This document shows positions 650 through 7,279 of a stretch of 42,152 nucleotides of DNA, in pieces (position 1 is the stretch's first letter; the number at the start of each line of letters is the position of its first letter). The notes under the pieces are model-generated. The model saw nothing but the letters and a program-made list of their open reading frames with translations, was not told the DNA's origin and ran no database searches. A program made the position numbers and the translations under genes. The DNA is from Herminiimonas sp. (GTDB lineage: Bacteria; Pseudomonadota; Gammaproteobacteria; Burkholderiales; Burkholderiaceae_D): contig NZ_JAUSME010000026.1 of NCBI RefSeq assembly GCF_030645555.1, positions 1-42,152 of the forward strand, given 5' to 3'.

Positions 650-2431
650 TTAATTCACATCGATTTCTATCCGGTTGCGACCGCTTTCCTTGGCACGGTA
701 CAGCGCCATGTCGCTGCGTGACAGCGATGCATCGGTATTGTCATCTGCCGCATTCATGATGGCAATGCCTATGCTCACGGTGACAGCAATTGTGCTTGTG
801 CCGAAAACGAATGGCGTTTCCGCGATTTGTTTGCGCACACGTTGTGCAAAGACACTGGCTTCGTCGAGGCCGGCATCGGATAGCACCACGGCAAACTCTT
901 CACCACCGACCCGGCCCACAGTATCGTTCTTGCGCAACGCATTGCGCAGTATCACTGCAAAGTGTTTCAGCACAAGGTCGCCTATCGCATGGCCGTGACT
1001 GTCATTGATGAGCTTGAAGTGATCAAGATCGCACATCAGGACGGCTGCACGTGCACCGCCGATGCGCTGGATGCGCGCCAGCTCTTCTTCCATGCGTGTC
1101 ATGAAATAGCGTCGATTGGGTAACTGCGTCAGGAAGTCGATGGTGGCAAATCCCTGCAATTCAATTTCTATCTGTTTGCGCTCGGTCACATCGGTGATGA
1201 AGCCATGCCACAGCGTACTGCCATCCGGCAGGCGCTGCGGTTTCGCATCGCCCTGGCGCCAGCGCAAACCTTGTTTGGGCAATATGACGCGGTACTCGAG
1301 ATGCCATGGTGTCAGGCTGGCCGCAGACGCATCCAGTGAAGCGCAGTAATCTGCGTAGTCATCCGGATGGATGATCCGGTGTACCAGGGTAACGTCATCG
1401 GCGACCTGCTCTGGTGCGAGTTCGTAAATATCGCGGATGCCTTCGCTGGCATAAGAAAAACAGGCACTGCCATTAGGCCGGGAACGATACTGGTAAACGA
1501 GGCCGGGAACTTCATTCGTCAGCGAGGTGATCAAGTCCACGCTCTGCTGCAGCTTGTCGGACAAGGCCCGCATCGCCGTGATGTCGGTCGTCGTGCCTAT
1601 CATGCGTAGCGGCTTGCCGGCCGCGTCGCGGCTGACTACCCTGCCGCGGCTTGAGATGTATTTATAGCTGCCATCCTTGCAGCGTATCCTGTGTTCGACT
1701 GCATAGCTTGCTGTCTTTTGATCGAAGTGCGCCTGCATCGTCGCCTGCACATGTGCAAGATCATCGGGATGAACCCGCGAATAGCTGTGTTCTATCTGAT
1801 TGGTGATTTCGGTATCTACGTAGCCAAGCATGGCTTTCCAGCCGGATGAATAGTGGATTTCGCCGGTAGCGATATTCCTGTCCCAGATTCCGGTGCCGCT
1901 GCCTTCTATGGCCTGCGCCATGATGGTTTCATTCTGAAGCAGGGCGTTCTCAGCTTTCCTGATCCTGGCTTCGGCGTCGTGACCTTGCACGGCTATCGAT
2001 GCCAGCACTGCCGCATCGGTCATCGTCTGTCGATACAGACTGCTGTCCTGCTCCGCTGTCCTGGTATGGACAATGAAAAATCCCGGCACGCTGTTGGTGC
2101 CGGAGTGTAGCGGCGTGATTGCGGATACATGCAAGCCATATCGCAGGGCGGTGTCGCGCAGGCCGGAAAGCAAGCGACTGTCTTCGATATTACCGGCGTC
2201 CATCTGCCCCATGTCGTCGGCAGCCATGCCATCGATTGCGCGACAGTAGTCTGGATGCAGACTGGGGGCGGCGCCTACGCGCAGGTGCTGGCCATCTTCC
2301 AGCAAGAGTATGGCGATTGCCAATTCCGGATTTTTTTCTTCGATCTCATGGGCTATGCAAGTTAGCGTCTCGGCCAGAGCTGCGCCTTGTGCAATATGTG
2401 TCAGCACGCTTGGAGAAAAATTAACATTCAT
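650..2431 (-). CDS. GAF/PAS-PAC sensor diguanylate cyclase (GGDEF)
   Basis: GAF-like N-terminus, two PAS/PAC-like segments (WDRNIATGEIHYSSGWKAMLGY..., FSYASEGIRDIYEL...), GGDEF domain with RVGGEEFAVVL. Confidence 0.9.
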   Translation of the reverse strand: MNVNFSPSVLTHIAQGAALAETLTCIAHEIEEKNPELAIAILLLEDGQHLRVGAAPSLHPDYCRAIDGMAADDMGQMDAGNIEDSRLLSGLRDTALRYGLHVSAITPLHSGTNSVPGFFIVHTRTAEQDSSLYRQTMTDAAVLASIAVQGHDAEARIRKAENALLQNETIMAQAIEGSGTGIWDRNIATGEIHYSSGWKAMLGYVDTEITNQIEHSYSRVHPDDLAHVQATMQAHFDQKTASYAVEHRIRCKDGSYKYISSRGRVVSRDAAGKPLRMIGTTTDITAMRALSDKLQQSVDLITSLTNEVPGLVYQYRSRPNGSACFSYASEGIRDIYELAPEQVADDVTLVHRIIHPDDYADYCASLDASAASLTPWHLEYRVILPKQGLRWRQGDAKPQRLPDGSTLWHGFITDVTERKQIEIELQGFATIDFLTQLPNRRYFMTRMEEELARIQRIGGARAAVLMCDLDHFKLINDSHGHAIGDLVLKHFAVILRNALRKNDTVGRVGGEEFAVVLSDAGLDEASVFAQRVRKQIAETPFVFGTSTIAVTVSIGIAIMNAADDNTDASLSRSDMALYRAKESGRNRIEIDVN

Positions 2432-2675: not shown

Positions 2676-3671
2676 TCAAGCGCGGTGATTTTCCTTTGCA
2701 TGAAAAATATTTTGCAAGGCGCTGCGCACATCAGGATAGGTAAATTCAAAACCGTTCGCTTGCAGTCGGGCCGGCGTCACGCGTTGCCCCTCCAGCAGCA
2801 GATCCGCCTGCTCGCCCAATAGCAGCCGCATCAGGATGGCAGGAGTCGGGAAAAAACATGGGCGATGCAGCAGCTGAGCCGCGGTCTTGCTGAAGACTGC
2901 CTGCGTGACGATCTCTGGCGCGGTGAAATTGTATGCCTCGATGGAGCCCTGCGCATCGCTTCGAGTATCGTTAGCCTGCGGTTCAGTTGGCATGGTCCAC
3001 AGATGCGCGATGGCGCGCAGCAAATCGTCTACATGTATCCACGATAGCGCTTGCCGGCCATCACCCAGCGGGCCGCCCAACCCCAGTCTGATTGGCAACA
3101 TCATCATCGGCAATGCGCCTTCCGTGCCGAGCACCAGTCCGAAGCGCATGCATTTCACCTGCACGCCATGCCGGCTGGCTGCATGCGCAGCCGCCTCCCA
3201 TTCCTGGCAAAGTTCGGACATGAATATCGCTTGCGGCGCGTCTGCTTCAGTCAGCAAGGCAGTATCTGCCCGCGCCTGTATCCCGTAATAACCGATGGCC
3301 GATGCCGACAGCAAGAGCCGGGGTTTGTGGGCGGCCTGCGCGACCCAGCTCACCAGCTTTTGTGTCGTGCCTGTGCGGCTCAGTCGCAATACGCGTTTGC
3401 GCGCAGCGCTCCAGCGCCATCCCAGTATGCGTGCGCCGGCCAGGTTGATGATGACATCCACGCGTTGCGTTGCCGGCAACTCATCCAGGCTGGCGATGCA
3501 GGTAACGCTGTCATCAAACTGGTGCGCAGTTTTTTCCGGATGCCGGGTCAACACGATGACGTGTTGACCATCTTCCACCAGTGCCTTTACCAGCAGTGTG
3601 CCTATAAAGCCGCTGGCGCCTGTTACCAGCACATATTCCTGTAGGTTACTAAAGTGGATGCGGGATGTCAT
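2676..3671 (-). CDS. TIGR01777-type NAD-dependent epimerase/dehydratase (YfcH-like)
   Basis: VTGASGFIGTLLVKAL Rossmann motif; INLAGARILGWRWSAARKRVLRLSR and LLSASAIGYYG motifs of this family; C-terminal DUF1731-like segment. Confidence 0.85.
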   Translation of the reverse strand: MTSRIHFSNLQEYVLVTGASGFIGTLLVKALVEDGQHVIVLTRHPEKTAHQFDDSVTCIASLDELPATQRVDVIINLAGARILGWRWSAARKRVLRLSRTGTTQKLVSWVAQAAHKPRLLLSASAIGYYGIQARADTALLTEADAPQAIFMSELCQEWEAAAHAASRHGVQVKCMRFGLVLGTEGALPMMMLPIRLGLGGPLGDGRQALSWIHVDDLLRAIAHLWTMPTEPQANDTRSDAQGSIEAYNFTAPEIVTQAVFSKTAAQLLHRPCFFPTPAILMRLLLGEQADLLLEGQRVTPARLQANGFEFTYPDVRSALQNIFHAKENHRA

Positions 3672-3874: not shown

Positions 3875-5290
3875 ATGACAGACGCAAAGCAAGCTGAAGC
3901 TGTACCTTCGTCATCTGCGAAAAGCGATGATGACATATCGTTTCCCCATTCCAAGGAAGCCAATCAATTCCGCCAGACGATCGCTGATCTTTTACTGCGG
4001 ATAGATAGCGAAGCAGAGCAACTTCGCAACAAGACTGCCGATCTTTTGACGCAGGTCGATGAACTTCATGAAGCAACGCAAAGCAAGCGCGTACTTGAGG
4101 CGCTGGTCGTGCAGTTGCGCGAAGCTAACGAGAATCTGGTATTGGCGGCGTTTGGTGCGCAAGAAAAGCAGGCGAAGGCCGAGTTCGCCAATCACCGACA
4201 GGAAGAATTTTTGTCGATGCTGGCGCATGAATTGCGCAATCCGCTCGCACCGATTGCAATGGCGGCAGATTTGCTGGGGAAAATTACAACGGCTCATCCA
4301 CTGCTGCCCAAGCTGTATGGCATCATCAGTCGCCAGGTCGGTCACATGTCGCATCTGGTCGATGACTTGCTGGATGCCTCGCGCGTCAGCACCGGCAACA
4401 TTACGCTGCAAAAGCGTTCGCTGCTGCTGTCGGAAATCATAGAAAGTGCGGTTGAAACCAGCCAGCCATTCATAGACAAGCGCAACCAGCAGTTAAGCAT
4501 CAATCTTCCAGAAGAACCTGTCGTCCTTGGTGGCGATCTGGTCAGGCTGGCGCAGGCTTTTGCCAACCTGCTCATCAATGCGACCAAATTTACGCCGGAA
4601 GAAGAACATATTGATATCTCTGCACAAATACTTGCAGATACCGTCAAGATATCGATCAAGGATAACGGGGTCGGCATAGCACTGGATATCCAGCCTTTCA
4701 TTTTCGATCTGTTTCGGCAAGGGACGCACTCACTGGATCGTTCGCAAGGCGGGCTGGGCATAGGGCTTTCGCTGGTGCGCACGGTAGTGGAAATGCATGG
4801 CGGTACGGTCAGCGTCTTTAGTGCCGGCGTTGGATGTGGCAGCGAATTCATTGTCGAGTTGCCGCTTTCCAACGGGCTCTTGCTCGACGATAGCGACGCA
4901 CCATCAAGCACCGCCTCGGTTTATGGACGCCGCATATTGTTGATCGAAGACAATGTCAGCGCCAACGAGATCATGAGTGATTTGCTGACGATGGAAGGCC
5001 ATACGGTAAGCTCTGCCTTTGACGGCACCTGCGGGCTGGCCATGGCGCGCGACAATATTTATGACATCATCGTTTGCGATATCGGCTTGCCTGGTATCGA
5101 TGGCTATGAAGTATTAAAACAGTTGCGTCTGGATACCGCCAAACCTGTGCCCCTGTGCATAGCCATCAGTGGTTATAGCCAGAAGGAAAATCGTATCAAC
5201 GCTGAACGCGTGGGTTTCGATCATTACCTGGTAAAGCCGGTAGCCATCGCCAATCTGGTGAGCCTCATTTCACCGAAACCTCTGCATTAG
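3875..5290 (+). CDS. Soluble hybrid histidine kinase (HisKA-HATPase-REC)
   Basis: H-box LSMLAHELRNPLAPIAMAADLL, N-box NLLINATKFTPEEEHIDI, G-boxes DNGVGIALDIQPFIFDLF and GGLGIGLSLVRTVVEMHGG, receiver domain IVCDIGLPGIDGYEVL. No obvious TM segment. Likely start is the Met of MTDAKQAE; the ORF track starts at 3821. Confidence 0.88.
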   Translation: MTDAKQAEAVPSSSAKSDDDISFPHSKEANQFRQTIADLLLRIDSEAEQLRNKTADLLTQVDELHEATQSKRVLEALVVQLREANENLVLAAFGAQEKQAKAEFANHRQEEFLSMLAHELRNPLAPIAMAADLLGKITTAHPLLPKLYGIISRQVGHMSHLVDDLLDASRVSTGNITLQKRSLLLSEIIESAVETSQPFIDKRNQQLSINLPEEPVVLGGDLVRLAQAFANLLINATKFTPEEEHIDISAQILADTVKISIKDNGVGIALDIQPFIFDLFRQGTHSLDRSQGGLGIGLSLVRTVVEMHGGTVSVFSAGVGCGSEFIVELPLSNGLLLDDSDAPSSTASVYGRRILLIEDNVSANEIMSDLLTMEGHTVSSAFDGTCGLAMARDNIYDIIVCDIGLPGIDGYEVLKQLRLDTAKPVPLCIAISGYSQKENRINAERVGFDHYLVKPVAIANLVSLISPKPLH

Positions 5291-5396
5291 GGTTCTGTTT
5301 GCTCGTCTCCAATGCAAACCTGTGTTTGTGTCGGGTCGAGCCTGATGGATTAACGCCCCTTCATTATTGTCGTTGTAACGCGCTCACTTTCAATCT

Positions 5397-5813
5397 ATGA
5401 CAACAATCGGCCCACAACGGGATCAAATGATAAGAAATGCCGTCATGCGACGGCCCGAGGCAATCGCTGACGTTTCTGTCGACCTGTGGGAGAAGCTCGC
5501 TTGCGGGCTTATTTCCATCATAGGCGAGGGCGGTTTCCAATCTCTCTACAAAAGAAGTCTGCACCTCACCAGTGCGACTTTTCCATGGATGGAAAGCCAT
5601 CCATCCTCACTGCAAAAAGATACCGGATTTGCAGATCTGAAAATTTGTCTTGCAGAACAAGACCCTACCGTAGCCGGCGAAGCCAGTACTGCTTTGCTGA
5701 TTACTTTCATCGACATACTGGCCTTGTTAATCGGCGAGCTTTTGATGTCCAGCATTTTACGTTTGGCCTGGGGTGATGACGCTTTGGATACAGTTGTGAA
5801 GGAACTTCCATAA
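5397..5813 (+). CDS. Small uncharacterised protein coupled to KaiC-like ATPase
   Basis: 138 aa ORF whose TAA stop overlaps the ATG of the KaiC-like gene (TAATGA at 5811-5816). Competing antisense ORF judged spurious. No family recognised by eye. Confidence 0.7.
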   Translation: MTTIGPQRDQMIRNAVMRRPEAIADVSVDLWEKLACGLISIIGEGGFQSLYKRSLHLTSATFPWMESHPSSLQKDTGFADLKICLAEQDPTVAGEASTALLITFIDILALLIGELLMSSILRLAWGDDALDTVVKELP

Positions 5814-7279
5814 TGAGTAACAAAGTAACCATACGCCGTTTGGCGACAGGCGTGCCTGGTCTGGACGATCTGCTGGGCGGCGGCCTGCCGGAATTTTCTT
5901 TCAATCTGCTGGCGGGTACGCCGGGCAGTGGCAAGACAACGCTGGCGCACCAGATCATGTTTTCGCTGGCCAATCCGGATTGCCGCGCGCTGTTCTTCAC
6001 TGTGCTGGGTGAATCGCCATTGAAGATGCTGCGCTATCAGCAGCAATTTCCGTTCTTCGATATCAGCAAGATCAATCACTCGATCAAGTTCGTCAACCTG
6101 GCGGCAGATTTGCTCGATGGCGATTTTGAGCGCGTGCTGGAGCGCATCGCGCAGGAAGTGGCGGCATTTTCGCCCAGCCTGGTCTTTGTCGACTCCTTCC
6201 GCTCGGTCGTGCAATCGGCCAAGACCAAGACACCTGGCGTATCCGGTCTGGAGCATTTCGTGCAGCAGCTGGGCATGCAGATGACGAGCTGGCAGGCGAC
6301 GACATTCCTGATCGGTGAATATCTGACGCCCGAGGCGGAATCCAGCCCGGTCTTTACTGTCGCCGACGGCATCATCTGGATGTCGCAACTCGTGCATCGT
6401 GACGCGATGGTGCGCAAGATACAGGTCGTCAAGATGCGCGGTCAGGCGCAGAGTCCGGGCGTACACACGTTCCGTATCAACGATGACGGCGTCGAGGTAT
6501 TCCCGCGGGCGCTGATCACGGCCAGCGCAGCAGGAGCGGTACAGATTACCGGAGATACCCGTCTGTCCATGGGCGTGCCTGCACTCGATGAGATGATGGG
6601 CGGTGGTTTGCCGGCTGGATATTCATTGCTGCTGGTGGGGCCTTCAGGCTCGGGAAAAACCGTGCTGGCGACGCAATTCCTTGCAGAAGGCGTGCGCGCG
6701 GGCGAGCCTGGCGTCATCGCGGCATTTGAAAAGAGCCCTAACCAACTCCTCAGCCACAAGCTGACCAAGCTGGTGCAAGGCGGCCATGTCGGCGTAATCA
6801 ATACGCGCACGCTGGATTTGTCTATCGATGAAATCCTGCACGATCTGATCGCGATGATTACCCGCATGAAGGCTAAGCGTGTGGTGATTGATTCCCTGTC
6901 CGGCTTCGAGCTCGCACTGGCATCGGTATTCCGTGAAGATTTCCGTGAAGCGTTGTACCGGATGGTTGCGGTATTGACCGGCATGGGCGTGACCGTATTG
7001 ATGACGGCCGAACTGGAAGATCAATATACCGTTCTGCGATTCAGTTCGTATGGCAATGCCTTCCTCGCGGATGCGATCGTCATGCAACGCTATGTCGAAA
7101 TTGACGGCCAGTTCAAACGCGTGATTTCGGTCGTGAAAATTCGTTCCAGCGCGCATAGCAAAGACATACGTTTCTTCGAGATTGCGGCCGACAAGCTCAC
7201 AATTGGTGAGCCGCTGACGCACTACCAGGGGATGCTGTCCGGCCACCCGACCACGACATCGCAGTTTCCGGATGAATAA
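5813..7279 (+). CDS. KaiC-like double-domain RecA/RAD55-family ATPase
   Basis: Two tandem KaiC domains, each with Walker A (GTPGSGKTT at about 5915-5938; GPSGSGKTV at about 6638-6661), repeated (R)LxxGVPxLDxxxGGGLP entry motifs, and a KaiC C-terminal signature QRYVEIDGQFKRVISVVKIRSSAHSKDIRFFEI. Confidence 0.92.
   Translation: MSNKVTIRRLATGVPGLDDLLGGGLPEFSFNLLAGTPGSGKTTLAHQIMFSLANPDCRALFFTVLGESPLKMLRYQQQFPFFDISKINHSIKFVNLAADLLDGDFERVLERIAQEVAAFSPSLVFVDSFRSVVQSAKTKTPGVSGLEHFVQQLGMQMTSWQATTFLIGEYLTPEAESSPVFTVADGIIWMSQLVHRDAMVRKIQVVKMRGQAQSPGVHTFRINDDGVEVFPRALITASAAGAVQITGDTRLSMGVPALDEMMGGGLPAGYSLLLVGPSGSGKTVLATQFLAEGVRAGEPGVIAAFEKSPNQLLSHKLTKLVQGGHVGVINTRTLDLSIDEILHDLIAMITRMKAKRVVIDSLSGFELALASVFREDFREALYRMVAVLTGMGVTVLMTAELEDQYTVLRFSSYGNAFLADAIVMQRYVEIDGQFKRVISVVKIRSSAHSKDIRFFEIAADKLTIGEPLTHYQGMLSGHPTTTSQFPDE

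Follow-up and report, generated by a model that had tools for sequence, protein, structure and literature searches.

What does a KaiC-like ATPase do when neither KaiA nor KaiB is encoded beside it? To our knowledge, KaiC homologues without these two partners occur widely in bacteria, and most of them have not been explained. One of them lies in the window analyzed here, a stretch of 42,152 nucleotides from a Herminiimonas metagenome-assembled genome (MAG; 2.49 Mb in 351 contigs). The original prediction described a trio of genes on one strand in which a soluble hybrid histidine kinase is followed, after about 106 nt, by a small ORF that overlaps a KaiC-like gene stop-to-start. ORF calls and Pfam matches confirmed every element of this layout (Table 1): the spacing is 106 nt, and a TAATG at 5811-5815 joins the stop of the 138-aa ORF to the KaiC-like start. 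The likeliest reading of the locus, held with moderate confidence and drawn from comparative sequence evidence, is that the small protein and the KaiC-like ATPase would form an ATP-dependent hub that gates kinase or c-di-GMP output through a helix shared by the partner enzymes, and not a clock.

Table 1. Features of the KaiC-like module, in window coordinates.
Feature	Position	Strand	Evidence
Soluble hybrid histidine kinase, HisKA-HATPase_c-REC, 471 aa	3875..5290	+	Pfam; AF2 model
Shared linker helix LREANENLVLAAFGAQEKQAKAEF, kinase residues 81-104	4115..4186	+	Alignment A3; specificity searches
138-aa protein, modeled as all-helical, from a family without a name; its gene is the constant partner of clade KaiC	5397..5813	+	Alignment A1; AF2; no match in Pfam or to PDB folds
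Double-domain KaiC-like ATPase, 488 aa	5813..7279	+	Two PF06745 domains; KaiC structures matched, best E 2e-62
P-loop of the N-terminal domain, GTPGSGKT	5915..5938	+	Sequence; alignment A2
Catalytic site of the N-terminal domain, LGE replacing the KaiC Glu-Glu pair; Gly66 invariant in clade	6005..6013	+	Sequence alignment
P-loop of the C-terminal domain, GPSGSGKT	6638..6661	+	Sequence alignment
Catalytic site of the C-terminal domain, Glu-Lys replacing Glu-Glu; invariant in clade	6728..6733	+	Sequence alignment
Ala416-Phe417 at the KaiC phosphorylation-site positions (S431/T432 of S. elongatus)	7058..7063	+	Aligned with HISTITDT of 8zn5/8zn6

The terminator scan lists no plus-strand terminator within the gap between the kinase and the 138-aa ORF, and promoter matches were no better than those in shuffled sequence. 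A regulatory RNA in the same gap was considered and rejected, its fold being ordinary (z -1.4). The nearest relatives are Oxalobacteraceae, with the top KaiC match in Undibacterium terreum (85%). Nearby, on the opposite strand, the window encodes a PAS-GGDEF diguanylate cyclase (593 aa, 650-2431, minus strand), which an epimerase-like gene with DUF1731 (2676-3671) separates from the module. Weak PADLOC matches prompted an antiphage defence reading, which was rejected as generic ATPase and receiver similarity: against full-length components the small protein had no match at all, and the kinase and KaiC-like protein had only weak partial ones to generic ATPase or receiver parts.

The invariant core of the module is the 138-aa protein together with the KaiC-like gene. 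Scanning a genome collection with the window KaiC returned 80 loci at 68-85% identity, and in 75 of these an intact small-protein gene lies directly upstream of KaiC, with the stop and start codons overlapping in most cases. The remaining five comprise a fusion to GGDEF-EAL (L070), two frameshifted copies (L049 and L051), a C-terminal remnant (L052) and a copy cut by a contig end (L029). Two of the contigs with clade KaiC come from MAGs labelled Rhizobium and Myxococcales (L072 and L077; 70-74% identity) and are probably binning errors. When a sample of 399 genomes of the order was searched separately with the small protein and with KaiC, the small protein was present in 26, and the KaiC homologues fell into two groups separated by a wide gap, one at 49% identity or more (24 genomes) and one at 34% or less. 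All 24 genomes of the first group, the clade discussed here, are among the 26 with the small protein; of the two left over, one has no clade KaiC that we could find (G661) and the other carries its small-protein gene at a contig edge (G299). The co-occurrence has a Fisher p of 1.5e-36, a value that is overstated because the genomes are related; likewise, the locus counts are not independent, since the genome sample includes some loci of the 80-locus set (e.g., L038 and L128). At the 20 inspected loci of KaiC homologues with 34% identity or less, neither the small protein nor the linker described below stands alongside. Several loci of the same order (L222, L225, L228 and L230-L238) hold a different KaiC class, which usually has a kinase immediately downstream and lacks both small protein and linker; it resembles the Ramlibacter KaiC-kinase group. 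The original view of a module that lacks KaiA and KaiB and includes the small protein is supported by its conservation and by a PF07689 search for KaiB in the window's own genome, which came back empty, an absence that is not absolute because the MAG is 90.5% complete.

The 138-aa ORF is a real gene, with about 60 homologues at 21-61% identity. Across the 62 aligned members R53 and G113 are invariant, while W31, G43, G46-F47, W64 and others are nearly so. AlphaFold2, run on the family alignment, predicts an all-helical protein (pLDDT 83, pTM 0.79). The protein has no match in Pfam, NCBIfam, PHROGs or PADLOC; searching all 62 members against Pfam gave nothing credible, only scattered single-member matches judged to be chance, and Foldseek found no fold match for the model in the PDB (best E 3.1) or among viral models. 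Public plasmid records annotate it as a hypothetical protein. In two loci the family occurs as a domain at the N-terminus of a GGDEF (L150) or GGDEF-EAL (L070) protein, the latter adjoining KaiC, and elsewhere its genes stand beside GGDEF-EAL genes (L017 and L125). The GGDEF fusion (L150, 6046-7140, genome G155) occurs without the linker and without clade KaiC, and in G661 the small-protein gene is followed directly by a linker-bearing kinase (L129, 1752-3955). In one further locus (L133, 6683-9610, genome G431) an insertion element that looks IS66-like, with three ORFs of 101, 119 and 619 aa, interrupts the small-protein gene and leaves KaiC and kinase intact.

These occurrences allow an alternative in which the small protein would sense a ligand or a cell state and relay it to the enzymes and to KaiC, the latter being an amplifier or scaffold. 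Its N-terminal place in both fusions agrees with this, as the N-terminus is the usual sensor position, and so do the partner kinases, which mostly have no sensor domain of their own, and the retention of the small protein without clade KaiC in G661 and G155. Against it, the protein shows no known ligand-binding fold or motif, and the Foldseek searches gave no structural match. We consider this alternative possible though rather unlikely; it is compatible with the hub explanation and differs from it in where the input would enter.

The partner enzymes vary from locus to locus. At 108 clade loci, the gene run contains a kinase in 69 (one of them contig-cut), a GGDEF or GGDEF-EAL protein without a kinase in 23 and a GGDEF-pseudokinase in 4; the other 12 show no partner enzyme, several of them being truncated. 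The kinase is therefore no rare neighbor of the KaiC gene, the pattern that would have spoken against the predicted association. Some loci carry a kinase and a GGDEF-EAL protein together, and the kinase that lies upstream in the window and its nearest relatives gives way to downstream partners in other loci. The kinase is thus interchangeable and not the fixed partner of the KaiC/small-protein pair, so that the proposed three-gene module survives in part: the small protein is nearly always there, whereas the kinase may be replaced or accompanied by GGDEF-EAL or GGDEF-pseudokinase proteins. In a few loci (L134, 8163-9854; L137; L139; L140) a GGDEF domain is fused to a histidine-kinase-like part in which EELSNP or AELLDP replaces HELRNP, so that the phospho-accepting histidine is lost; the linker occurs twice in these proteins.

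The window kinase itself, read from the ATG at 3875, contains HisKA (residues 109-173), HATPase_c (220-332) and Response_reg (354-465), with no sensor domain matched in Pfam. His118, Asn231/Asn235 and the G-box residues are invariant across 24 partner kinases, as expected of hybrid histidine kinases. Its AF2 model has a single unbroken helix from residue 26 to 136 that enters HisKA; the domain arrangement of the model is not to be trusted because pTM is only 0.48.

Within that continuous helix lies a linker of about 24 residues that kinase, GGDEF-EAL and GGDEF-pseudokinase partners have in common, in each case directly ahead of the catalytic domain; the GGDEF-pseudokinase proteins bear one copy before each of their two domains. 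Its consensus is LrxANxxLVxAtxxAQxlxExxExA, and A84, N85, L88 and A95 are invariant in the 24 partner kinases. In the clade gene runs, 114 of 120 kinase or GGDEF enzymes carry it, compared with 5 of 45 signaling ORFs outside the runs, and it occurs in no non-signaling ORF at the 108 loci.

The linker is also restricted to genomes that contain these systems. In a search of 25 genomes that encode the small protein, the strong matches to the linker sit in module gene runs; one further match, on a separate contig behind a receiver fragment (G438), looks like the continuation of a split operon. In 25 genomes that lack the small protein, no match scored better than E 0.3. Among 399 Pseudomonadota genomes the linker reached E<=0.001 in three, all of them among the four with the small protein, and in none of the approximately 395 without it; on both searches, a generic signaling helix was rejected. 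A motif pattern supplied the 36 sequences from which the linker model was built; that these 36 contain the linker is therefore built in, whereas its rarity elsewhere is not. One of the three genomes with linker matches (G976, locus L241) was used to build neither the small-protein nor the linker model and offers a held-out case: the two were found separately, 2 kb apart, with a clade KaiC (62% identity) between them, giving the order small protein-KaiC-kinase. A held-out Caballeronia plasmid has small protein-KaiC-GGDEF/pseudokinase, with the linker twice. Exceptions exist as well. Two genomes keep the small protein and KaiC without a linker match (G569 and G442), one locus keeps KaiC and a linker-bearing GGDEF-EAL protein next to a decayed small gene (L052), and G661 keeps the small protein and a linker-bearing kinase, clade KaiC not being found in its genome. 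These exceptions give opposite answers as to which of KaiC and the small protein the linker needs (G661 versus L052), and with all four considered, either may be the protein that the helix contacts.

Alternatively, the linker may be a mere lineage-specific signaling helix, spread as kinase and GGDEF genes swapped N-termini in place, with the true docking site elsewhere and the KaiC-small-protein pair controlling the enzymes in another way or merely sharing their regulation. The linker does sit where an ordinary signaling helix would, and passing on rotation inside the dimer may be all that it does; like such helices, it is continuous with HisKA in the model, and downstream kinases and GGDEF-EAL proteins share the rest of their N-terminus too. 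However, this remaining N-terminus is poorly conserved in the kinases (0.27), whereas the linker (0.69) is conserved about as well as the catalytic domains (0.65 and 0.63). The helix moreover precedes three different catalytic architectures, and it escaped detection better than E 0.3 in the 25 genomes without the small protein. These observations make a merely lineage-specific helix unlikely in our judgment.

The KaiC-like protein of the window belongs to the KaiC superfamily, its two PF06745 domains scoring E 7e-68 and 228.9 bits against a curated cut-off of 26.6, and it falls far below the cut-offs of the clock-KaiC equivalogs TIGR02655 (164 of 546 bits) and NF006799 (229 of 408 bits). All 34 aligned clade members retain both P-loops and have Ala-Phe instead of the phosphorylation sites, and the paired glutamates of clock KaiC are replaced by Gly-Glu and Glu-Lys. 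From the established biochemistry of KaiC, for which phosphosites and catalytic glutamates have been described (PMC5520375), the clade KaiC should bind ATP yet be unable to run a Ser/Thr phosphorylation cycle.

The sequence comparisons lend no support to the suggestion that the small protein or the kinase stands in for KaiB- or SasA-type partners. The small protein, all-helical in its model, does not resemble KaiA or KaiB in sequence and has neither their Pfam domains nor their folds; the kinase has no KaiB-like N-terminal domain in Pfam of the kind found in SasA, its N-terminus being one long helix in the model. KaiB/SasA signaling, furthermore, reads out KaiC phosphorylation sites, which this clade does not have. 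A damped timer or hourglass built on KaiC, in which the small protein took the role of KaiA/KaiB and the kinase that of SasA, would fit the KaiC fold with its retained P-loops and the KaiC-kinase hourglass proposed for Ramlibacter (PMC3164672), but is very improbable given Ala-Phe at both phosphosites in 34 of 34 members, the altered glutamate pairs, the failure to find KaiB (PF07689) in the 90.5% complete window genome and the judgment in the same paper that KaiC homologues unable to phosphorylate the two residues are unlikely to sustain timing.

The ATP-dependent hub that we prefer could work as follows. The KaiC-like protein would make a hexamer, whose ATP-bound or hydrolyzed state would be set or read by the small protein, and this state would decide whether the ring engages the long dimeric coiled coil ahead of the catalytic domains of the partner enzymes. 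The shared 24-residue helix would be the coupling element: the ring may bind or release it and thereby switch the dimeric enzyme behind. With the phosphorylation sites gone, the hub would keep its state through nucleotide and partner binding and not through an autophosphorylation cycle, which makes a KaiABC-type clock unlikely. Since the linker of the window kinase joins straight onto the HisKA helix, the hub would there switch kinase/phosphorelay output, while in sister loci, where the linker lies ahead of GGDEF-EAL, the output would be c-di-GMP. We infer hexamer formation, physical binding and the direction of signaling; by analogy, the stimulus may relate to stress, biofilm or lifestyle control.

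Parts of this arrangement have precedents. That KaiC occurs beside kinases or GGDEF/EAL proteins is already known from the Ramlibacter tataouinensis genome paper (PMC3164672), which grouped proteobacterial KaiC genes by context. Its third, "black" context, without KaiB and near kinases or GGDEF/EAL proteins, was called heterogeneous; phosphosites there were poorly conserved, with AF among the listed profiles, and the authors judged timekeeping unlikely. The loci described here share the poor phosphosites and the kinase, receiver or GGDEF/EAL protein that often adjoins, but they form one clade tightly organized around a small helical protein, with partners that have a common linker. As in the cyanobacterial KaiABC/SasA system, a double-domain KaiC ATPase is genetically linked to a histidine kinase; in contrast to that system, the module has no KaiA, KaiB or phosphosites, and its kinase no KaiB-like domain. 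The KaiC1 and KaiC2 stress regulators of Methylobacterium extorquens are likewise non-cyanobacterial KaiC proteins in environmental signaling, but they keep phosphorylated serines, and one of their two clusters includes KaiB (PMC8069551). Signal-transduction hubs have also been proposed for archaea, in the form of KaiC-like ATPases (Makarova et al. 2017, summarized in PMC5847659); there, KaiC-family ATPases, some of them divergent and possibly inactivated, are combined with varied signaling domains, as here. The archaeal systems are described there through fusions and other domains, whereas the present module is bacterial and consists of separate operon genes with a shared linker.

No description of the small family or of the linker was found in the literature searched, which covered few of the subscription journals. 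We tentatively suggest, with slightly less confidence than we place in the hub itself, that this is an undescribed signaling system, in which a phosphosite-less KaiC ring and a new helical partner would control chemically different enzymes via a transferable docking helix, so that KaiC would be an ATP-state hub of bacterial phosphorelay and c-di-GMP signaling alike. On the comparative evidence, the module is a real and well-conserved KaiC-associated signaling variant, for which the mechanism is a proposal. One clade of clock-less KaiC thereby gains a defined partner, a new protein family, and a defined output, a kinase or c-di-GMP enzyme, as well as a short sequence element predicted to connect it with these outputs. 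With partner, output and connecting element all defined, a few residue changes would suffice to test directly what a clock-less KaiC does. If the proposal is true, the KaiC ring would serve as a phosphorylation-free switch, and a single linker would be the plug between that hub and unrelated enzymes.
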